Assembly: GCA_022785125.1 (NCBI GenBank)
Contig: JALFRA010000011.1
Location: forward strand, 1-41,564
Origin: Clostridiales bacterium
GTDB taxonomy: Bacteria > Bacillota > Clostridia > Oscillospirales > Oscillospiraceae
Direction: 5' to 3'
DNA length: 41,564 bases
Below the pieces are notes generated by a model. The model was not told where the DNA came from. It saw only the letters and a list, made by a program, of their open reading frames with translations, and ran no database searches. Positions 9,827 to 20,347 of this stretch are shown here, in pieces (position 1 is the stretch's first letter; each line of letters starts with the position of its first letter). A program made the translations under genes and the position numbers.

Positions 9827-9855
9827 TTGAAGCCGGAGCCTGATTCGGTTATAAT
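9827..9855 (+). promoter_or_regulatory. Promoter upstream of the M60 metalloprotease gene
   Basis: TTGAAG (9827-9832), a 17-bp spacer and a perfect TATAAT (9850-9855). Transcription should start near 9862, 165 nt before the protein start, and immediately meets the hairpin at 9889-9922. Confidence 0.7.
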
Positions 9856-10026: not shown

Positions 10027-13000
10027 TTGATACATTCACGTCGCATCATCTCCGGTTTACTGAGCGTGGCCATTGCGGCAGGTTCCTGCACTGCCTGGCT
10101 TCCGGCCGCCGCCGCTGGCCCGCAGGAGCCCCCCGCTTTTCAGGCCCGGCAAACAGTCACAGGTTCCATCGCCCTTACCCTGCGCTTTGATCTGCCCCAG
10201 CGGGTGGACGAAGTGAAGCGCCGGGACATCCGGCTCCATCTGACAGGCAACGGCAAGAATATCATTATTTCCATGGAGGACGGCTCCGCCACAGGCGCTG
10301 ACGGTCTTTCTGTCTCCTGGGAGGCACAAAACACCCAGGGCGCCCCTCTCTCCACCGAGCAGCAGCTGGGTGCCTATCAGGCCGTCATCTCCGGTCTGCC
10401 CCTGGGAGACTACACCATGACCGTCACCGGCACGGGCTATGCCACCTGCGCCACTCAGGTGACCCTTCAGGACTACTCCCAGCACGTGTTGATGAGCACC
10501 GCCGACGGCACCTTCTCCCTGGGCGATGTGACCGGAGACGGCGCGGTAACCGTTGACGACCGGACCGCGCTGGACGCCCAGCTGGGCCTGACCGGCGATC
10601 TGGCCACCTACGACCTCAACGGCGACGGTGTGGTGGATGTCTCCGATCTTTCTTATATCAATAAGATGATGGATCTGGAGGCCGATCCCCGCATCCTGTC
10701 CACCGCCGCCATTGTGGCTCCCACAGTGGATGAGGATACCGTGACTTTTACCGAGGGCTCTGCGGCGGATCTGTTTGCCGGAGATACCTCCGTTACCCTC
10801 AAGCCCGCTGACGACGCCGGCGCGCTTTCCATTCCCATCGCCTTTGACAGCGCCGTCACCATGAGCGAGATCTCCATCTCCTCTCCCAGTGTGGACGGCG
10901 CCATTCAGGCGGGCACCGCCATCGTGGAAACCGAGGACGGTCAGACTCTGGAGGTCCCCTTTGACGCCTCGGCGCCCGAAGGGATTCACGCTACGAGCCG
11001 GGTGGCCGGTCAGAACCTGGTGACCATTGATCTGGGCAAGAAGGTCCCGGTCAAAAAGGTCACCATCACCGTCACGAAGGTGGAGGGCCAGACCGGTGAC
11101 AAGCCGGAGTTTGCTACTGTTACCCAGATCGAGTTCCTCAAGGATATCGTATCCGAGGAATCCAAGTCGGATGCCCAGGTGAAAGGTCTGGCCGCCACGG
11201 TGGGCGACGGGGAGGTCACTCTGGTGTGGGACAGCCTGCCCAACGTTTCCGGCTACACCGTCAACTACGGCACCAGCAAGAATGCCCTGAGCAGCAGCGC
11301 CGGAGCCGGTGCCAACCGCATCACCATCTCCGACCTGAAGAACAACACCACCTATTATTTCCAGGTCACCGCCGTCAGCGGCAGCTGGAGCGGCACCCCT
11401 TCCGCCATCCTGGCCGCCACCCCCCTGCCCGCCAGCGTCCCCGGCGCCCCCTCCAACCTGATGGTGACGCCGGCTGACAGCGCGCTGCGTCTGAACTGGG
11501 GCAGCACCAAGGACGCCACCTATTACCAGGTGTTCTACCGGGAGCAGGGCGCGTCGGAGTTCGTGGCCTGGGGCGGCAGCACCACCGCCACCAGCGCGGT
11601 CATCACCGGGCTGACCAACGGCGCCGTCTACGAGGTGGCCGTCAAGGCGGGCAACCTCCACGGCGCCGGTCCCTTCTCCGCCACTGCCGCCGGCGCCCCC
11701 AAGAAGGAGGGCTTCGACCTGCCCCAGCTGCCTACCGACGGGCGCATCGGCAACGGGGAGATCACCTCCATCGTCATGCAGGACCCCTCCAACGTGAACC
11801 GGCAGCTGTGCCCCAACTTTGATGTGACCACCGACCTCACCGACAACGATCCCAATACCTACTGGATCGCCGCTACCTACACCCAGAACAGCGACATCAC
11901 CTACACCTTTGAAACCACCCACGATATGAACTATCTGCTGGTGGTCCCCTATCTGGATGCCACCTACAAAAACCGCATTGCCAATTACACCATCACCCTG
12001 AAGGGGGAGGACGGCCAGGTGCTGGCCACCTATTACCGGGACGGCGTCAATATCACCGGCAGCAACTACTACATTCTCTCCTTCCCCGAGACCAAAAACG
12101 TCAAGAGCGTTACCCTGGCTCTGGGCGAAAAGACCGGCGGCCCCCGTGTCAGCGTTTCGGAGATCGCCTTCTATGAGAGCGAAAACCTGGTCAGCGGCAT
12201 CGCCGACCTCTTTACCGACGGTACCTTCACCGCGCTGAAGGGCACGGTACAGCAGCAGACCATCACCCATCTGCAGGACCGCCTCAACGCGCTGGGCAGC
12301 TTCTATCTGGACCGCGCCCGGCTTCAGGATGAGCTGGACCTGGCTCAGGCTCTGCTGGAGCAGAGCAGCGACGCGCTGGGCCTGGTGAAGAATGACTTCC
12401 AGAGCCGCAGCACGTCCGCTGCCCCCGATCAGGCCGCGGGCCAGACTGCCAGCGACCTGCAGCCTCTGGGCGTCACCGCCCGGGCGGGCTCCGTCGTGGC
12501 CATCTACGCCGAGCTGCCCGACGACGCCACCGTCTATGTGGTGCCCACCCAGTTCTACGGTGAGTCCGGCGTGTGGAAGGGCACTCCCGTGGCCCTGAAG
12601 AACGGCCGCAACTACATCACCGTGGAGAAGATCGGCTCCCTTACCGACACCCGGGGCGGCATGCTCTATCTGACCTACAGCGGCAGCCATCCCGAGCAGA
12701 TCAAGCTCCAGATCCGCGGGGACAGCAATGTGTACTCCATGCCCGTGCTGGAGCTGTCCGGCTGGTACACCATGGGCGACTCCGCCCGCAAGGACGCCAT
12801 CCGGGCCTATATCCAGACGCTGGAGTCCTATGTATCCGGTCTGTCCGGTACCAGACTGACCACCGACGTCCGCAACGCCACCGAGATCTCCACCCCCAGC
12901 GTGCTCCTCTCCCTCCCCGCCGACCAGGTCCTCTCCGGCCTGAAGGGCGTGGGCAACAATGAGGACGCCATGGTGGAGACTATGTATCAGAACATCCTGG

Positions 13001-14838
13001 CCTGGGAGGAAGAGCTCTTTATCGCCAATAAGGTCCAGGGCATCATCCCCTCTGACGCTGCCCTGTCTGGCTACACCTATCCCATGACCACCCGCCAGAA
13101 CATCCGCTATATGCGTATGTTCGCCGGAGCCTTCATGTATGCCGCCGGCAACCATATCGGCGTGGAGTACGGCTCCACCTCCGCCCTGGTCCAGGGCAAG
13201 CCCACCTCCGCTACCGGGGCCGGTCAGGCCAACGGCCTGTTTGGCTGGGGCATCGCCCACGAGATCGGCCACAACATGGACAAGCTGGGCCGGGCCGAGT
13301 GCACCAACAACATCTACTCCCTGGCCCTCCAGGCCTGGGACGGCTCCGCCATGACCGTGAGCACCCGCCTCACTGAGGACGGGCGCTGGGAGCAGATCTT
13401 TGACAAGGCGGCCCAGGGCCGCCCCGGCTCCGCCAACAACGTGTTCGTGCAGCTTGGTATGTACTGGCAGCTCCACCTGGCCTACGATGAGGCCGATCAG
13501 CCCCTGGCCTTCTACAATGCCTTCTTCAAGGCCTGGAAGTCCGGCGCCTACAGCGGCTATTCCTACGACGAGCGGGTGGCTCTCATCGCCTCCCAGGTGG
13601 CCGACCGGGATCTGACCCAGTTCTTCACCCGCTGGGGCATGACCCTCAGCGGCGGCGTGAAGGACATCCTGAACGACTACCCCGCCGAGGAGCGGGCCAT
13701 CTGGTACCTGAACGACGCCTCCCGCACCTACCGGCTCCAGAGCGGCAGCGCCGCCGAGGGCACCGCCTCTGTCACCGCCTCCGTCAACGAGTCTGAGGTG
13801 ACCCTGACCATCAGCCACACTGACAGCGGCAAGATCCTGGGCTATGAGATCCGCCGCAACGGCACCCCCATCGCCTTTACCACCGAGACCACCTATGTGG
13901 ATGACCTGGGGGCTGCCAACAACCTGACCTACACCTACACCGTGGTGCCCGTGGACAAGCTGGGCAACCTGGGAACCTCCGCCCAGAGCAGCGAGGTCCG
14001 GGTAGCCTACGACAAGACCATCAGCACCGATCTGTACGACCTGGCCCGGAGCGAGGACGGCGCCATTACCATCACCATGAAGGGCGGCACGTCCGTCCCC
14101 GTCACCGGCATCAAGGTGACCGGCACCGACCTGTCCGGCAGCTACACCGTGAAGGTGAAGGCTGACGCCAACGGGGAGGCATGGACCACCGCCAAGACCG
14201 GCACGCTGTCCGAGGACACTGTGGTGGCCTACTTCAATAAGCCCGGCGTGGGCCCCGAGGATACCCGCATCTGGACCTATGACGCCGCCGTGGTGGAGAT
14301 CACCGGCATCCCCGCCGACGCCGACCTGGCCCTGCTGGACTACCCCGGCGACCGGGTGGACTTCTACGAGGGCGCCGCTGTGGGCATCCTCAAGGATGCC
14401 TACGAGGACATTCCCGCCGGTACCCTGGTGATCCTGGGCACCTACCGGGGCGATCCCGTGTACAACTATGTGGAGATCGAGGCCCGGTACAGCACTACCC
14501 CCGAGGCCGGTGAGGTGACCACCATTGAGCGGGCCATGAACGGGGAACTCTACCTGCTGGCTGAGATCCCCGCCGACGGTGCGGTGAGCGACACCAGCGA
14601 CGGCTTCTTCCTCTTCGTGCCCGACATGGAGGCGGAGGCCGCACTCAACGCCCAGAGCCACGTCACCGACCCCTATCCCCTGGAGATCCGGGCCAACTTC
14701 TACCGCACCGACGATCCCAATAGCGCTGACAGCAAGCGCCTGACCAGCCAGACTCTGTGGCTCAGCTTCCCCGACGGCGGCGATGACGAGGACCAGGTGT
14801 CCCTGCCCGTCATCGAGCTGAAAAGCGACTTGAGCTGA
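10027..14838 (+). CDS. Secreted M60 (enhancin-type) metalloprotease with dockerin, FN3 and carbohydrate-binding-like domains
   Basis: A 1603-residue secreted protein. It starts at a TTG (10027) after GGAAAGGAAGG, which gives a good signal peptide ending near AAAA (residues ~27-30). Domains in order: a beta-rich N-terminal domain (~35-160); a dockerin (165-217) with two calcium loops, DVTGDGAVTVDD and DLNGDGVVDVSD; a beta-sandwich (~225-375); two fibronectin type III domains (~382-565); a discoidin-like region (~570-720); a peptidase M60 domain (~815-1225); a third FN3-like domain (~1245-1330); and a C-terminal beta domain. The protease core is HEIGHNMDKLGRAE at 1078-1091, a complete gluzincin HExxH-x8-E motif. 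M60 enzymes cleave O-glycosylated mucin-type proteins. It has no SLH domain or sortase signal of its own, so anchoring may depend on the dockerin and the next gene, which begins 8 bp downstream. Confidence 0.9.
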   Translation: MIHSRRIISGLLSVAIAAGSCTAWLPAAAAGPQEPPAFQARQTVTGSIALTLRFDLPQRVDEVKRRDIRLHLTGNGKNIIISMEDGSATGADGLSVSWEAQNTQGAPLSTEQQLGAYQAVISGLPLGDYTMTVTGTGYATCATQVTLQDYSQHVLMSTADGTFSLGDVTGDGAVTVDDRTALDAQLGLTGDLATYDLNGDGVVDVSDLSYINKMMDLEADPRILSTAAIVAPTVDEDTVTFTEGSAADLFAGDTSVTLKPADDAGALSIPIAFDSAVTMSEISISSPSVDGAIQAGTAIVETEDGQTLEVPFDASAPEGIHATSRVAGQNLVTIDLGKKVPVKKVTITVTKVEGQTGDKPEFATVTQIEFLKDIVSEESKSDAQVKGLAATVGDGEVTLVWDSLPNVSGYTVNYGTSKNALSSSAGAGANRITISDLKNNTTYYFQVTAVSGSWSGTPSAILAATPLPASVPGAPSNLMVTPADSALRLNWGSTKDATYYQVFYREQGASEFVAWGGSTTATSAVITGLTNGAVYEVAVKAGNLHGAGPFSATAAGAPKKEGFDLPQLPTDGRIGNGEITSIVMQDPSNVNRQLCPNFDVTTDLTDNDPNTYWIAATYTQNSDITYTFETTHDMNYLLVVPYLDATYKNRIANYTITLKGEDGQVLATYYRDGVNITGSNYYILSFPETKNVKSVTLALGEKTGGPRVSVSEIAFYESENLVSGIADLFTDGTFTALKGTVQQQTITHLQDRLNALGSFYLDRARLQDELDLAQALLEQSSDALGLVKNDFQSRSTSAAPDQAAGQTASDLQPLGVTARAGSVVAIYAELPDDATVYVVPTQFYGESGVWKGTPVALKNGRNYITVEKIGSLTDTRGGMLYLTYSGSHPEQIKLQIRGDSNVYSMPVLELSGWYTMGDSARKDAIRAYIQTLESYVSGLSGTRLTTDVRNATEISTPSVLLSLPADQVLSGLKGVGNNEDAMVETMYQNILAWEEELFIANKVQGIIPSDAALSGYTYPMTTRQNIRYMRMFAGAFMYAAGNHIGVEYGSTSALVQGKPTSATGAGQANGLFGWGIAHEIGHNMDKLGRAECTNNIYSLALQAWDGSAMTVSTRLTEDGRWEQIFDKAAQGRPGSANNVFVQLGMYWQLHLAYDEADQPLAFYNAFFKAWKSGAYSGYSYDERVALIASQVADRDLTQFFTRWGMTLSGGVKDILNDYPAEERAIWYLNDASRTYRLQSGSAAEGTASVTASVNESEVTLTISHTDSGKILGYEIRRNGTPIAFTTETTYVDDLGAANNLTYTYTVVPVDKLGNLGTSAQSSEVRVAYDKTISTDLYDLARSEDGAITITMKGGTSVPVTGIKVTGTDLSGSYTVKVKADANGEAWTTAKTGTLSEDTVVAYFNKPGVGPEDTRIWTYDAAVVEITGIPADADLALLDYPGDRVDFYEGAAVGILKDAYEDIPAGTLVILGTYRGDPVYNYVEIEARYSTTPEAGEVTTIERAMNGELYLLAEIPADGAVSDTSDGFFLFVPDMEAEAALNAQSHVTDPYPLEIRANFYRTDDPNSADSKRLTSQTLWLSFPDGGDDEDQVSLPVIELKSDLS

Positions 14839-14846
14839 ATGAAAGG

Positions 14847-16139
14847 ATGAAACCGTTGCGTAAACTCTCCCTGTTTTTCCTGACGCTCTGCCTGATGGCA
14901 GCCACCCTCATTCCCGGGGCGGCTGCCGCCGGCGGGCTCCGGCTGGTGGTCTCCTCTCAGGAGCCCGCCGCCACCCAGACCGTGGGCTTTTCCGGCCTGC
15001 CCTCTGACTGCCAGAGCCTTCAGGCCACCTTTACCCTCTCCGACCAGGACGCCTCCTACGGTTTTGCTCCTGACCAGACCCTGGCCGGCCGTACCGGCGT
15101 CTACGTCACCGCCAAGCAGAACGGCGCCAGCGTGACGGTGTATGCCACCGCCAAGTCCGGCACGCTGTCCGACGACGGCTCCCTCACCCTGGGCACCATC
15201 TCCTCCGCCGACGGCGCCGCCACCTTTACCGTGGAAAAGGCCATTGACCTGAAGCTGATCACCTCCGACAACACGGAGACCACCTATCCCTCCGCCGACG
15301 AAGAGGGCGCCGCCCCAGGCGCCGTTTCCTATGCCATTACCGTCAAGGAGAGCTCCGGCGGCTCCATCACCGCCAGCCGTACCCGGGCCAACAAGGGCCT
15401 GACCATCACCCTCACCGCCAAGGCGGGCGAGGGCTACAAGCTGGACACCCTTACCGTGACCGACAAGAACGGCAATGCGGTGAAGCTCACCGACAAGGGC
15501 AGCGGTAAGCACACCTTTACCATGCCCGCCTCCGCCGTCACGGTGTCCGCCTCCTTTGTGAAGGTCGACGCCCCTGTGGACCCCGGCCTGCCCTTCACCG
15601 ACGTGGTCTCCGGCAGCTGGTACTATGACAGCGTGGCCTATGTCTATGAGCAGGGCCTGATGGGCGGCACCAGCCAGGGCCGGTTCTCTCCCGACCTGAC
15701 CACCAGCCGCGCCATGATCGTCACTATCCTCTACCGCCTGGAGGGCAGCCCCGCCGTCACCGGCGGCGCGTCCTTTGCAGATGTGGCCTCTGGCCAGTGG
15801 TACTCCGACGGTGTGGCCTGGGCCAGTGCCAACGGCATTGTCACCGGCTACTCCAACGGCAGCTTCGGCCCCGATGATACCATCACCCGGGAGCAGATGG
15901 CCGCCATCCTCTACCGGTACGCCCGCTACAAAGGCTGCGACCTGTCCGCCCAGGCTGATCTGGACGGCTACTCCGACGCCGCTCAGGTGTCCGCCTATGC
16001 CGCCGACGCCATGGAGTGGGCGGTGGGCTCCGGCCTTATCACCGGCACCAGCGGGACCACCCTCTCTCCCGCCGGTTCTGCCACCCGGGCCCAGGCCGCT
16101 GTGATTCTGGCCCGCTTCTGCCAGACCCTGGCCCAGTGA
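14847..16139 (+). CDS. SLH-anchored surface protein with cohesin-like N-terminal domain
   Basis: A 430-residue exported protein, with a signal peptide to about residue 28. Residues ~29-150 form a beta-rich domain. Its run of strands (VGFSGLPSDCQSLQATFTLS, then GVYVTA, VTVYATAKSGTLSDDGSL, AATFTVEKAI) resembles a small cohesin, but this is my inference. Residues ~162-240 are an 80-residue repeat that is almost identical to one in the neighbouring sialidase. Residues ~248-428 are three SLH modules (LPFTDV.., ASFADVASGQWYSDGVAWA.., and a third around YSDAAQVSAYA), which bind cell-wall polymers. It is probably co-transcribed with the protease and ended by a strong terminator. A plausible job is to hold the dockerin-bearing protease on the cell surface. 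AAAGG lies very close to the ATG, suggesting coupled translation. Confidence 0.82.
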   Translation: MKPLRKLSLFFLTLCLMAATLIPGAAAAGGLRLVVSSQEPAATQTVGFSGLPSDCQSLQATFTLSDQDASYGFAPDQTLAGRTGVYVTAKQNGASVTVYATAKSGTLSDDGSLTLGTISSADGAATFTVEKAIDLKLITSDNTETTYPSADEEGAAPGAVSYAITVKESSGGSITASRTRANKGLTITLTAKAGEGYKLDTLTVTDKNGNAVKLTDKGSGKHTFTMPASAVTVSASFVKVDAPVDPGLPFTDVVSGSWYYDSVAYVYEQGLMGGTSQGRFSPDLTTSRAMIVTILYRLEGSPAVTGGASFADVASGQWYSDGVAWASANGIVTGYSNGSFGPDDTITREQMAAILYRYARYKGCDLSAQADLDGYSDAAQVSAYAADAMEWAVGSGLITGTSGTTLSPAGSATRAQAAVILARFCQTLAQ

Positions 16140-16152
16140 TCCGTCCTGTTTC

Positions 16153-16201
16153 AAAACGCGTCCCCGGCTCTGTAAATACAGAGCCGGGGACGCGTTTTTT
16201 G
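16153..16201 (+). terminator. Strong intrinsic terminator after the protease/SLH operon
   Basis: A perfect 21-bp stem: arms at 16153-16173 and 16178-16198, a 4-nt loop, and a T-run into 16200. It separates the two-gene operon from the sialidase gene. Confidence 0.92.
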
Positions 16202-16310
16202 ACCCACGGCTCCTTTCTGTTATAATGCCCTTTTTCATCGAAATGTCTGCATTTTCCCATCATACCCAAAAGTTCCCTGTACGTTTTACCCAATATTAAG
16301 AAATAATTTT

Positions 16311-16354
16311 TTGCACTTCCGTGCAATGAAAAATATTTTCCTCGATGGTATAAT
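16311..16354 (+). promoter_or_regulatory. Sialidase promoter with upstream dyad
   Basis: An extended -10, TGGTATAAT, has its hexamer at 16349-16354; 17 bp upstream is ATGAAA (16326-16331), a 4/6 match to -35. A TTGCAC/GTGCAA dyad (16311-16316 and 16321-16326) touches the -35 and could be a regulator site. The leader to the GTG start is ~75 nt. Confidence 0.55.
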
Positions 16355-16435
16355 ATTTCCATCTCTTTGACGTCCGCCCCACCCGGCGTCAAGTACCGCT
16401 CCGCACCATCTGATGAAACGAAAGGAAGGATCAAT

Positions 16436-19400
16436 GTGAAACACACCTGGAAACGCCTGTTGTCGCTGTTCATGAGCCTCTCCCTGTTGGCCGGGCTCAT
16501 GCCGGCGGCTCTGGCCGCCCTGCCCACCGCCTATCAGTATCTTCAGGACACCAATGGGGTGGACTCGGGCGCGGTATACGCCATTTACACCAATGAAGGT
16601 TCTTACAGCAATGACCGCATTCTTTACCACACCGGCAACGGCATGACTGACAAGGTCCAGGCTTCGGTCAGCAACGATCAGTTGACCCTGAACGGCAAGT
16701 TTGATGCCTCCCGCCAGCTGTGGACCATCACTGCTCTGGACAACGGCTACACCGTCCGCAGCGTGGACAGCGGCCGGTACCTGGATCTGACCAACGCCAG
16801 CGCCACCAACGTCAATACCTCTGCCGATCCGGTGGTCCTGACCATCAACTTTACTGAGGAGACCGGGCTGTACTCCTTCACCCAAAGCAGCGGACAGTCT
16901 CTTTCCTACAACGGAAGCGGCAACTTCTTCTCCAGCGAGACCGCCTATGGCTTCCGCCTCTACAAGCAGGCCGAGGTGGCGCCCGACATGGCTCCCGGCG
17001 CCGACTCCGGTACCAGCAACGGCCAGCCCTTTGTGAAGGAGGACACCGACAGCCAGTACTTCCGCATCCCCGCCCTCATTACCCTGGACAACGGCTGGAT
17101 CGTGGCGGGCTCCGACATCCGCTGGCGCACCGTCGGCGACTCTCCCCAGAACCTGGACACCATCGTCAGCCTCTCCAAGGACGGCGGCCAGACCTGGGAC
17201 TGGGAAGTGGTAAACTACTATGACGATATGGCCGACAATGCTACCGGCCAGACCAGCGCCTCCTTCATTGACCCCTCCATCCTCCAGGCCGAGGATGGCA
17301 CCGTCCACATGGTGGTGGACGCCTGCCCGTCCTATGTGGGTCTTATGTACGGCAACAAAATGGGCTGGGAGAGTTCCGGCTTTGACGAGCAGGGCCGCCT
17401 GCTGGTGACTCACGGTACTGCCGGACGCGATACCTCCCGCACCGTGTCCGACTACACTTACTATGCGGACGTCAACAACGCCGGGGCCGGTGTGGAGCAG
17501 TCGGTCGACGGCGAGACCATCACCCTCTATCCCATCTGCAAGGCTGAGGACGACAGCCGGACCGGCGTCTGGGTAGATGCCTGGCTGAACATATATACGG
17601 AAGAGGACGGCGTCATCACCCCCGATCTGTGCCTCCAGCTGAGCAGCTCCGACGCGGTACAAAGCAACCTGTTCTACCGCAACTCCGAGTGGAAGGCCTA
17701 CCCTGTGTTCTATATCATGCACCGCTCCGCCACTGTCACCGAGAGCGGCCTGGTATGGAGCGACCCCCAGTTCCTGGACATCAAACTGGCTGAGAACGAG
17801 GCCTTTACCGGCGTGTGCCCCGGCCGGGGCCTGTCCTTCCGGTATGAGGGCAAGGAGCGGCTGGTGTTCCCCCTGTATGACAACGCTACCGGCAAGGAGC
17901 TGGCCAGCGTCATCTACTCCGACGACGGCGGCAAGACCTGGATCCGGGGCCAGCACAACGGCAGCCTGAACGGCGTGGGCAAGACCAGCGAGTCCCAGGT
18001 GGTCCTGCTGCCTGACGGCACCCTGCGGATGTACTCCCGCAACACCATCGGCTCCATCAGCTACGCCGACTCCACCGATGGCGGCGTTACCTGGGGCACC
18101 TGCCAAAAGGACACCGCTCTGGCCTACACCTCCAACTGTATGGTATCCTTTATTAATCTGGACGGCATCCTGGTAGGTCCGGATAACACAGTCTATAAAA
18201 ACCTGATCTTGGCTTCCTATCCCAAGGGTTCCTCTGGTAACCGCACCGACGGCGTGGTCCGCATCGGCTATGTGGACGAAAACAACACCGTGCAGTGGCT
18301 CAACGACGACACCACCCGCTTCAGCGGCGGCTATTCCTACTCCTGCCTGACCCAGCTGTCCCAGCTGGATACCTTCGGCCTGCTTTATGAGTATGCCCCT
18401 GATACCAACACCATCGGCTATGTGGCGCTGGACGTAAACGACCTGTTGGGCGAGAGCTGGTTCCTGCTCAGCGGCGTATCCGATCTGCCCTCCATCTCTC
18501 TGGATCAGACCGTGGTGGATCTGAAGGTGGGCGAGACCGCCACCCTCACCCCCACCTACACCCCCGCTGATGGGGAGGTGCGCTGGACCTCCAGCAACCC
18601 CGACGCGGTCACCGTGGACGGCGGCGTAGTCACCGCCAAAGCCCCCGGCTCCGCCACCATCACCGCCTCGGTCTCCTCCAGCGGCATCACCCGCACCGCC
18701 TCCGCCGACGTGGCGGTCCAGGGCGAGGACGGCATCATCCTGCCCGACCGGTACACCGACGCGGTGGAGAAGACCTATCATGAGGCCTCCACCACTTATG
18801 AACTGGATACCGACGGCATCGACTCCGGCAGCATTTACGCCATCTTCCACACCGGCAGCAGCCGAATCCTGTACCACGCCAGCGGCAGCACCACCAGCGA
18901 TCATGTGACCGGTTCCGCCTCCGGCGGCCTGCTGAAGCTGGACAGCGGTTATGCCGTCACCCGTCAAACCTGGACCGTTACCGGCGACGCTGAAAATGGC
19001 TATGCCATCCAGAGCTGTGAGACCGATGGCCGCTACCTCAACCTGAACGCTGCCACCAACGTGGGCAGCAAGGTACCTGTCACTGATACGACCCAGGCGC
19101 TGACCGTTGCCCCGGTGGACGGCTCCGCCGGCTCCTATACCGTTAGCCGTGTGGTGGATGACCAGACTCTCTATCTGGCTCACGAGAATGGCAGCTCCCA
19201 GCACTATGTGAGCACTTCCGCCGTTCCCTTCCAGTTCTACCGCCAGGTCATCACTGAGGAGGGGTACACCTACACCACTTCCGTCACCGGTCTGGAGACC
19301 CTCATTGCCGACCTGTCCGGGCTGAAGGAAGCAGACTATACCAGCACCAGCTGGACTGCCCTCCAGAACGCCCTGACCGCCGCCCGGAAGGTAGCCAGCA

Positions 19401-20347
19401 CCGGCAGCCAGAGCTTTGATACCGAGCTGGCCGCTCAGACCGCCCAGGCGGTCATTGATCAGGCCGCCAGGGACCTGTATGCTGCCAAGCTGGCGCTGGA
19501 AGCGGCAGACAGCGGCAGCGTGCCCACCACCACCTACGCCATCACGGTAAAGAGCGCCGACAACGGCTCTGTGACCGCCAGCCGCACCCGCGCCTCCAAG
19601 GGCCTCACCATCACCCTGACCGCGAAGGCCGATGAGGGCTATAAGCTGGATACCCTTACCGTCATCGACAAAAACGGCAAAGAGGTAAAGCTGACCGACA
19701 AGGGCAACGGCAAGTATACCTTCACCATGCCCGCCTCCGCTGTCACCGTAAAGGCCTCCTTCGTCAAGGACGACGCTCCCGTGGACACCGGCCTGCCCTT
19801 CACCGACGTAAAGACCGGCGACTGGTTCTTTGAGGCTGCCAAGTACGTCTACGATAACAAGCTGATGGACGGCACCACCACCACCACCTTCGCTCCCCTC
19901 ATGACCACCAACCGGGCCATGGTGGTCACCATCCTGTGGCGGCTGGCCGGCTCCCCGGAGCCTGAGGCCGCTCCGGCCTTCTCCGATGTGGCCGCCGGCA
20001 GCTGGTATACCGACGCCGTGGCCTGGGCCAGTGAGAAGGGCATTGTCACCGGCTACAGCGACAGCGTCTTTGCTCCCGACGACACCATGACCCGTGAGCA
20101 GCTGGCCACGGTCCTGTACCGCTATGTACAGTACACCGGCGGCGGGTTCCAGGGCGCCTGGGCCTTCCCCCTGGACTATGCCGATGCCGATCAGGTGTCC
20201 GCCTGGGCCTATGAGGCCATGTGCTGGTGCACCATGAAGGGCATCATCAACGGCGTGGGCGGCAATACCCTCAATCCGCAGGGTTCCGCCACCCGGGCCG
20301 AGGTGGCGCAGATCCTGATGAATTTCTCCGCCGCCGATCTCACCTGA
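16436..20347 (+). CDS. SLH-anchored multidomain sialidase (GH33)
   Basis: A 1303-residue surface sialidase that releases sialic acid from host glycans. The GTG at 16436 is preferred over an upstream in-frame codon: AAAGGAAGG precedes it and it begins a clean signal peptide (to ~residue 28). Domains: a beta-trefoil-like domain (~30-185), GH33 catalytic domain (~195-690), BIG2-like domain (~690-765), a second beta-trefoil-like copy (~788-945), FIVAR (~951-1022), the 80-residue repeat shared with the previous gene (~1035-1115), and three SLH modules (~1121-1300). The catalytic domain has the FRIP motif at 209-212 and Asp boxes at 247-254 (SKDGGQTW), 495-502 (SDDGGKTW) and 546-553 (STDGGVTW). The ~240-residue gap between the first two boxes implies an inserted domain. 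It has its own promoter and terminator. Confidence 0.92.
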   Translation: MKHTWKRLLSLFMSLSLLAGLMPAALAALPTAYQYLQDTNGVDSGAVYAIYTNEGSYSNDRILYHTGNGMTDKVQASVSNDQLTLNGKFDASRQLWTITALDNGYTVRSVDSGRYLDLTNASATNVNTSADPVVLTINFTEETGLYSFTQSSGQSLSYNGSGNFFSSETAYGFRLYKQAEVAPDMAPGADSGTSNGQPFVKEDTDSQYFRIPALITLDNGWIVAGSDIRWRTVGDSPQNLDTIVSLSKDGGQTWDWEVVNYYDDMADNATGQTSASFIDPSILQAEDGTVHMVVDACPSYVGLMYGNKMGWESSGFDEQGRLLVTHGTAGRDTSRTVSDYTYYADVNNAGAGVEQSVDGETITLYPICKAEDDSRTGVWVDAWLNIYTEEDGVITPDLCLQLSSSDAVQSNLFYRNSEWKAYPVFYIMHRSATVTESGLVWSDPQFLDIKLAENEAFTGVCPGRGLSFRYEGKERLVFPLYDNATGKELASVIYSDDGGKTWIRGQHNGSLNGVGKTSESQVVLLPDGTLRMYSRNTIGSISYADSTDGGVTWGTCQKDTALAYTSNCMVSFINLDGILVGPDNTVYKNLILASYPKGSSGNRTDGVVRIGYVDENNTVQWLNDDTTRFSGGYSYSCLTQLSQLDTFGLLYEYAPDTNTIGYVALDVNDLLGESWFLLSGVSDLPSISLDQTVVDLKVGETATLTPTYTPADGEVRWTSSNPDAVTVDGGVVTAKAPGSATITASVSSSGITRTASADVAVQGEDGIILPDRYTDAVEKTYHEASTTYELDTDGIDSGSIYAIFHTGSSRILYHASGSTTSDHVTGSASGGLLKLDSGYAVTRQTWTVTGDAENGYAIQSCETDGRYLNLNAATNVGSKVPVTDTTQALTVAPVDGSAGSYTVSRVVDDQTLYLAHENGSSQHYVSTSAVPFQFYRQVITEEGYTYTTSVTGLETLIADLSGLKEADYTSTSWTALQNALTAARKVASTGSQSFDTELAAQTAQAVIDQAARDLYAAKLALEAADSGSVPTTTYAITVKSADNGSVTASRTRASKGLTITLTAKADEGYKLDTLTVIDKNGKEVKLTDKGNGKYTFTMPASAVTVKASFVKDDAPVDTGLPFTDVKTGDWFFEAAKYVYDNKLMDGTTTTTFAPLMTTNRAMVVTILWRLAGSPEPEAAPAFSDVAAGSWYTDAVAWASEKGIVTGYSDSVFAPDDTMTREQLATVLYRYVQYTGGGFQGAWAFPLDYADADQVSAWAYEAMCWCTMKGIINGVGGNTLNPQGSATRAEVAQILMNFSAADLT

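Follow-up and report, generated by a model that had tools for sequence, protein, structure and literature searches.

A dockerin-bearing M60 peptidase and its neighbour with a cohesin-like domain: a candidate one-enzyme surface tether in Clostridia

Two adjoining genes encode a peptidase and a predicted wall protein

The window analysed here is a stretch of 41,564 nucleotides (contig JALFRA010000011.1, assembly GCA_022785125.1) from a Clostridiales bacterium that probably comes from an animal gut and whose genome (G000) measures 2.97 Mb and is 99.76% complete. Three open reading frames (ORFs) lie at 10027-14838, 14847-16139 and 16367-20347, as an earlier note on this DNA had described. Our subject is the first two: a gene for a secreted M60 metallopeptidase that carries a dockerin, and the gene that follows it, whose product places an N-terminal domain, called ND below, ahead of three SLH modules. 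We propose that ND is a divergent cohesin-like module that would hold this single enzyme at the cell wall.

10027..14838, forward strand: gene for a secreted M60 metallopeptidase of 1603 amino acids with a predicted X-dockerin dyad (ORF call, translation, Pfam)
10159..10491, forward strand: predicted X module, a beta domain N-terminal to the dockerin, residues ~45-155 (AlphaFold2 (AF2) model, Foldseek)
10516..10680, forward strand: dockerin, with calcium loops beginning at residues 167 and 196 (Pfam Dockerin_1, ligand conservation)
11836..12147, forward strand: F5/8 type C domain (CBM32-like), with fn3 domains ahead of it (Pfam)
13042..13638, forward strand: M60 catalytic domain, residues 1006-1204 (Pfam Peptidase_M60)
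13258-13275, forward strand: HEIGHN zinc motif, residues 1078-1083 (motif in translation)
14847..16139, forward strand: proposed gene for a wall-anchored receptor of 430 amino acids (ORF call, Pfam)
14928..15314, forward strand: ND, cohesin-like domain, residues 28-156, the proposed dockerin socket (AF2, Foldseek, profile search)
15330..15563, forward strand: divergent InlB B-repeat (Flg_new_2) linker domain (Pfam, E 5.2e-12)
15591-15713, 15771-15902 and 15969-16100, forward strand: three SLH modules, the predicted wall anchor (Pfam)

From its N terminus the peptidase comprises a signal peptide (assigned by eye), an X-like beta domain, the dockerin, two fn3 stretches, an F5/8C-like domain and the M60 domain. 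The catalytic domain matches Peptidase_M60 (PF13402) with an E-value of 2.6e-17 and contains a HEXXH-type motif; fn3 is matched at E 5e-16, and the F5/8C match (E 8.7e-6, 26.3 bits) stays below its cut-off of 28.2. Solved relatives found in a PDB search include F5/8C-type peptidases and ZmpA/ZmpC, and by analogy to the Zmp relatives mucin would be the substrate.

The dockerin spans residues 165-214 (Pfam Dockerin_1, PF00404). Its score, against a cut-off of 22.9 bits, is 19.9 when the whole protein is searched, 23.6 for the segment alone and 26.1 in the genome scan. The profile match is accompanied by the paired calcium loops of the family, both of them intact, and D, N, S, T, E or G stands at positions 1, 3, 5 and 12 of both loops in 74 of 77 aligned rows, the window included. 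A faint similarity connects it to the dockerin of a solved hyaluronidase chain (2jnk/2ozn, E 0.075). Positions 10, 11, 17 and 18 of a dockerin are usually tied to cohesin recognition. Here they vary in the first repeat and are more conserved in the second (I/V, T/V/I, N, R/K), which suggests a single binding mode via the second repeat and makes one docking orientation probable.

The partner protein consists of a signal peptide (by eye), ND, the InlB-like repeat and the three SLH modules (E 1.9e-37), which would place it on the cell wall. Its gene starts 8 bp after the peptidase stop at 14838. The earlier note's descriptions of a dockerin with two calcium loops, of an enzyme devoid of its own anchor (no SLH, sortase or cell-wall domain is found in the peptidase by Pfam at E<=1) and of a closely spaced gene with three SLH modules behind a beta domain are all borne out.

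The gene pair is conserved among close relatives

An M60 alignment was scanned over 84,980 species genomes, and 79 loci were kept as the best of 206 relatives, among them Flavonifractor, Pseudoflavonifractor, Oscillibacter, Butyricicoccus and Anaerotignum lactatifermentans. The ND gene follows the M60 gene on the same strand in all 77 loci that have sequence there. ND itself is present in 78 of 78 partners, window included, with an independent E-value, calculated within this set, of 8e-19 or better after four profile rounds, four of the partners requiring round 2. SLH modules lie in the ND ORF in 75 of the 77 loci; in L043 they are found in the next ORF, and the contig of L023 stops before this point. 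A dockerin is visible in each of the 77 loci that reach it (Pfam E<=0.01 in 75 of 77 segments). The spacing is tight: the earliest in-frame start of the partner lies a median of 4 bp behind the end of the M60 gene, and at most 30 bp in 74 of 75 cases. Flanking genes within 4 kb are not conserved, the largest homologue group covering 8 of 72 loci upstream and 7 of 69 downstream. In five loci (L013, L016, L047, L056 and L094) the M60 gene is split into two or more frames, by sequencing error or decay.

Within the family of the host bacterium, ND occurs in eight of 200 genomes including its own; in the other seven an M60 gene lies directly upstream, fragmented in two of them. The same search did not find ND in G022, a genome of the same genus, and the distribution of the module within the family is patchy. 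Locus counts and genome counts are not independent because the samples overlap (L027/G143, L030/G182, L042/G211, L049/G071, L050/G316, L068/G344 and L078/G030).

Across the class, ND accompanies the dockerin and its anchor changes

Of 393 genomes sampled across the class, ten contain ND; besides the host genome, M60 genes with a dockerin adjoin eight of the nine matches, and the remaining match is marginal. The M60 catalytic region occurs in 18 of the 393, which together with one extra ORF found by BLAST gives 21 M60 ORFs. All 14 dockerin-bearing M60s have an ND, 13 of them next door and one (L150) as a weak stretch in cis, and a profile search confined to the M60 loci found none beside the seven dockerin-less M60s (defined by a local dockerin profile, with Pfam applied genome-wide only for G538 among them). 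Nine of the 14 ND cases came from the whole-genome search and five (G453, G507, G508, G538 and G539) from the local search of M60 loci. With ancestry ignored, the naive exact probability of 14/14 against 0/7 is 8.6e-6, and counting only the nine genome-wide cases (9/14 against 0/7) gives p 0.007. Phylum-wide, ND is rare: 398 genomes yielded the host genome, G211 and a weak partial match only. Two matches were regarded as chance, one in G402 (E 9e-4, in an ORF of 2397 amino acids lacking M60 and dockerin) and a partial one in G983 (E 0.0025).

What stands behind ND differs between lineages. SLH modules occupy this place in the window and in 75 of the 77 loci. The same holds for G211, G316, G344 and G531, all but the last of which also belong to the 79-locus set. 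G539 has three CWB2 repeats instead (E 1.5e-49), G538 an LPXTG signal (22.4 bits, cut-off 20), and G508, G608 and G649 an NP.TG motif with a hydrophobic stretch and a basic tail, assigned by eye; the NCBIfam NPXTG model stayed below cut-off for G649 and G508, the two scanned. An anchor that is swapped while ND stays is the pattern of a receptor module, and it would be hard to explain if ND merely accompanied an SLH gene.

The L150 gene (L150:6834-13151, G507) encodes a dockerin-bearing M60 of 2106 amino acids with the weak ND-like stretch at its C terminus (E 0.0015, local); this protein possibly holds plug and socket in one chain.

Predicted folds of ND and of the peptidase N terminus

The AF2 model of ND, built from a 77-sequence alignment, has nine strands (pLDDT 94.1, pTM 0.88). 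Searched with Foldseek against 350,542 PDB chains, it matched six at E<=1e-3, and all six are cohesins by title, the best being Clostridium perfringens 2jh2 (E 4.5e-4, TMq 0.53). Among the top 28 matches, 25 are cohesins (chains of complexes were counted by title and chain length), two are YcnI and one is a CBM3-like module. ND is thus predicted to be a nine-stranded jelly-roll beta-sandwich like that of cohesins, at a moderate level of match. The earlier note had suggested this comparison as a check of its cohesin reading, and the model does retrieve cohesins.

The model of peptidase residues 36-225 (pLDDT 95.9) shows the X module packed ahead of the dockerin. It has ten Foldseek matches at E<=1e-3 (best 2.3e-8, TMq 0.52-0.55). 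Six are identified by their titles as type II cohesin-dockerin or XDoc complexes, and the other four chains belong to Clostridium thermocellum scaffoldin complexes. By its predicted structure the N-terminal region of the peptidase is an X-dockerin dyad.

One dockerin and no recognised cohesin in the host genome

The inventory of the host genome is short. The search for further dockerin proteins that the earlier note had proposed returned only the one in the 10027 peptidase at E<=1. No Pfam cohesin exceeds its cut-off, the sole match (11.7 bits) lying outside this locus, and there is a single ND at E<=10. By these searches the genome has neither a scaffoldin with several cohesins nor several dockerin enzymes, as a cellulosome or mucinolysome would have, and with one socket and one dockerin client the term scaffold, used in the earlier note, gives way to that of a tether. 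The genome also contains 145 SLH matches at E<=0.01 on many contigs, SLH anchoring being a major route of surface display.

In some other genomes the inventory is larger, which bears on the view that the dockerin enzyme belongs to a multi-cohesin complex on its own or on neighbouring cells, with ND incidental. Several Pfam cohesins and dockerins are indeed present in the pair-bearing genomes G420, G516, G507, G608 and G649, and cross-talk between the pair and these larger sets may occur. A search for Pfam cohesins at E<=0.01 came up empty in ten of the 21 pair-bearing genomes, the host genome included, and nine of the 21, again with the host genome, hold exactly one dockerin (E<=0.01), located in the M60 peptidase; one further genome, G118, in which the frame is split, has no dockerin match. 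Given these counts we consider membership of a multi-cohesin complex very improbable, and the least likely of the alternatives to a one-enzyme tether.

Some of the larger sets deserve a description. ORFs of 864-1618 amino acids with both Pfam cohesins and dockerins occur in G420 (C8 and C16), G516 (C16) and G453 (C2), and the multi-cohesin system of this family coincides with an ND partner that has no recognised anchor. In G608, ten dockerin matches fall within ~31 kb (G608:C1:2453952-2484599) with two cohesin matches near the start, which looks like a separate cohesin-dockerin locus. Three overlapping dockerin matches in 102-base steps (G507:C7:76768-77124) form a run of dockerin-like half repeats in one ORF of 1883 amino acids.

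The proposed tether and the evidence for and against it

We propose a surface tether of two genes and one enzyme. The M60 peptidase would be secreted with its X-dockerin dyad and no anchor of its own, and the next gene would supply a wall-anchored protein whose N-terminal ND serves as a short, divergent cohesin-like socket. The dockerin would be the plug for ND; this contact is inferred, as is its probable need for calcium, and it would probably have a single orientation. SLH modules would fix ND to the wall so that the mucin-cutting enzyme stays with the cell, and the fn3 and F5/8C domains of the tethered peptidase would reach the substrate. We put the probability of this reading at roughly 0.8. 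It is held at that level because there is no cohesin sequence homology, because the mirror-tree value of the dockerin is low, because ND also resembles CBM2 and CBM3 in fold and because binding is deduced from fold and genomics. With distinctly less assurance, we also think it probable that ND represents an unrecognised cohesin family, invisible to sequence models, that acts as a one-enzyme tether across several families of Clostridia with its anchors swapped.

Several results weigh against the proposal. No sequence method calls ND a cohesin: residues 28-156 of the window protein match no Pfam family over cut-off; Pfam Cohesin is absent among the 25 of 40 families listed for the 77 ND members and was not found in nine distant partner proteins; searches of ND against PDB sequences with phmmer and hmmsearch were negative, as was NCBIfam for cohesin; and profile-profile comparison with hhalign gave probabilities of 2.8% and 1.6% for the 77-row and 18-row alignments (against 29 Pfam cohesins of 30 loci, L125 being left out). 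The Foldseek scores are modest, with TMq 0.40-0.60 and a root mean square deviation of 5.4-8.2 A for the six best matches, and YcnI, CBM3 and CBM2 folds come after the cohesins in the list. The 79 loci derive from relatives of ND-bearing queries, which biases that sample towards the pair, and the co-occurrence statistics ignore phylogeny. The whole-genome search missed ND in G453, G507, G508, G538 and G539, the ND of G507 is weak and in cis, and no recognised anchor stands behind ND in G420, G453 and G516, all of one family. We class ND as cohesin-like and not as a member of PF00963; it is the fold comparison that points to a cohesin. The earlier suggestion that a cohesin-like domain before the SLH modules is the dockerin receptor is favoured by the predicted fold and strongly by the genomics, and finds no support in the sequence methods.

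The fold likeness leaves room for ND being a CBM2/CBM3-type beta-sandwich that binds glycans or surfaces, in which case both genes would act on mucin and the dockerin would bind elsewhere or stabilise its own protein. CBM2/CBM3 modules and cohesins have their general fold in common, CBM3 and CBM2 structures appear among the ND matches after most of the cohesins, and the missing sequence link between ND and cohesins would fit. Cohesins nevertheless outrank CBMs for the ND model. Cellulose-type CBMs rely on aromatic strips, whereas tryptophan is conserved at no position of ND and just three alignment columns reach 40% aromatics or more. Moreover, ND occurs together with the dockerin and is not found beside the seven dockerin-less M60s, and the host genome offers no Pfam cohesin over cut-off as an alternative receptor. 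We regard a carbohydrate-binding role in place of the socket as unlikely, if the strongest of the alternatives.

Co-divergence was assessed by a sliding mirror-tree test on 72 pairs, omitting L034 and L052 (truncated), L047, L056 and L094 (split frames), L058 and L065 (no partner sequence) and L076 (ambiguous letters). It also weighs against a dockerin-ND contact, with no excess of co-divergence between the two (partial rho 0.11), a partial correlation of 0.28 for the catalytic region and the top windows, at 0.34-0.39, within residues 690-774. Such peaks away from the dockerin would fit an ND that binds the peptidase at another site, the catalytic or a neighbouring domain, as an inhibitor, chaperone or positioner while the dockerin has another purpose; the gene pairing would then be identical. 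These peaks are weak, however, and shaped by common ancestry: the two genes share their line of descent (ND and the catalytic domain correlate at rho 0.76), and we give the test little weight for that reason, reading it as uninformative to mildly negative for the dockerin-ND pairing. Binding at another site would also leave the seven dockerin-less M60s without ND unaccounted for, and a cohesin-like fold is what one expects of a dockerin partner. We consider this alternative slightly less likely still than the carbohydrate-binding one, and retain the dockerin-ND tether.

The sialidase gene probably lies outside the unit

16153..16200, forward strand: strong hairpin of 21 pairs with a T run, likely the terminator of the two-gene unit (RNA fold)
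16367-20347, forward strand: sialidase-type gene with a BNR_2 domain and three SLH modules (Pfam)
9827..9855, forward strand: promoter-like site (10/12), 5' of the peptidase gene (pattern scan, weak)
16199-16226 and 16326-16354: promoter-like sites before the sialidase gene (pattern scan, weak)

The third protein is an SLH-bearing sialidase, as the earlier note had it, with BNR_2 and three SLH modules. We reject it as a third part of the system, and it is probably not in the operon. Its listed start lies 227 bp downstream of the partner gene, beyond the hairpin and two promoter-like sites. RNA folding of 16140-16210 gave -48.1 kcal/mol (z -10.2), although the pattern scan did not list the hairpin; the promoter-like sites are weak evidence, since the whole stretch contains five against 2.7 expected. 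Within the available locus sequence a similar sialidase ORF occurs in only two of 80 loci, the window included, and 58 of 77 loci extend at least 5 kb past the partner gene. Because of the hairpin, the promoter-like sites and the rarity of the sialidase ORF at the relatives' loci, we take peptidase and partner as the probable unit.

Receptor and sialidase have a C-terminal cassette in common. Receptor residues 150-424 (15294-16118) and sialidase residues 1046-1320 (19502-20326) are 62% identical over 276 columns, comprising the InlB-like repeat and SLH modules, as if an anchor cassette had been copied. A tblastn search of plasmids gave 40 records, all below 60% identity, and in the five listed only the repeat and SLH part aligned.

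Significance and comparison with known systems

If the proposal is true, it would offer a possible explanation of what keeps M60 mucinases without an anchor on the cells of gut Clostridia. The question bears on which bacteria degrade the mucus layer; Flavonifractor, Pseudoflavonifractor, Oscillibacter, Butyricicoccus and Anaerotignum are among the relatives. 'Orphan' dockerins in genomes lacking annotated cohesins may then have their receptor encoded next door. Cohesins are perhaps under-counted, with sequence models overlooking the ND family, and the cohesin-dockerin principle may also exist as a minimal one-to-one clip, as the sole dockerin in nine of the 21 genomes would suggest. The pair is small and can be tested as two purified domains.

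One close parallel is the cellulosome of C. thermocellum, in which an X-dockerin dyad is the plug that joins the scaffoldin CipA to anchored cohesins. The fold of the dyad is alike, and so is the layout of anchoring scaffoldins, which combine cohesins with SLH or sortase anchoring in the parts of PMC12484212 consulted. In contrast to that system, the enzyme here carries the dyad directly and no primary scaffoldin intervenes, and sequence likeness between ND and cohesins is not detectable.

The M60 (PF13402) enhancin-like and Zmp mucin peptidases resemble our enzyme in catalytic motif and in having fn3 and F5/8C as accessory domains. Among 415 M60-like proteins surveyed in 2012, two had a dockerin, and one figure labelled its Clostridium and Bacillus entries '?-anchor'; a partner-gene tether, which the sections of the survey seen do not mention, could answer that label (PMC3267712). 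Titles and abstracts among the literature matches listed, mostly open-access, contain no description of the peptidase/ND pair.

Host glycans as the target, which the earlier note had presented as the departure from cellulosomes, have precedents. The C. perfringens complexes (2jh2, 2vo8, 2o4e, 2w1n) likewise combine single cohesin modules with host-glycan targets, and their five cohesin proteins, with X82 cohesins, are all glycoside hydrolases linked enzyme to enzyme (Adams 2008, via PMC12997984). A C. perfringens module is ND's closest fold match, yet has no sequence match, and ND sits on a predicted wall-anchored protein beside one peptidase, not on a glycoside hydrolase. The Limousia mucinolysome, reported in 2026, is a mucin-directed cohesin-dockerin system of gut Clostridia. 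It has scaffoldins with several cohesins, peptidases that carry dockerins, and cSca5, an LPxTG-anchored protein whose N-terminal module is a cohesin; ET540 has 21 dockerin CAZymes, and the modules are mostly recognised by Pfam models (PMC12997984). The terms M60, PF13402, enhancin and S-layer are absent from the main text of that paper. Set against Limousia, the window genome has one dockerin, one client and not a single Pfam cohesin that passes its cut-off. Host glycans are already known as targets of cohesin-dockerin assembly from C. perfringens and Limousia; what appears to be new here is a cohesin-like family that sequence models miss, placed in a tether of two genes and one enzyme whose anchors can be exchanged.

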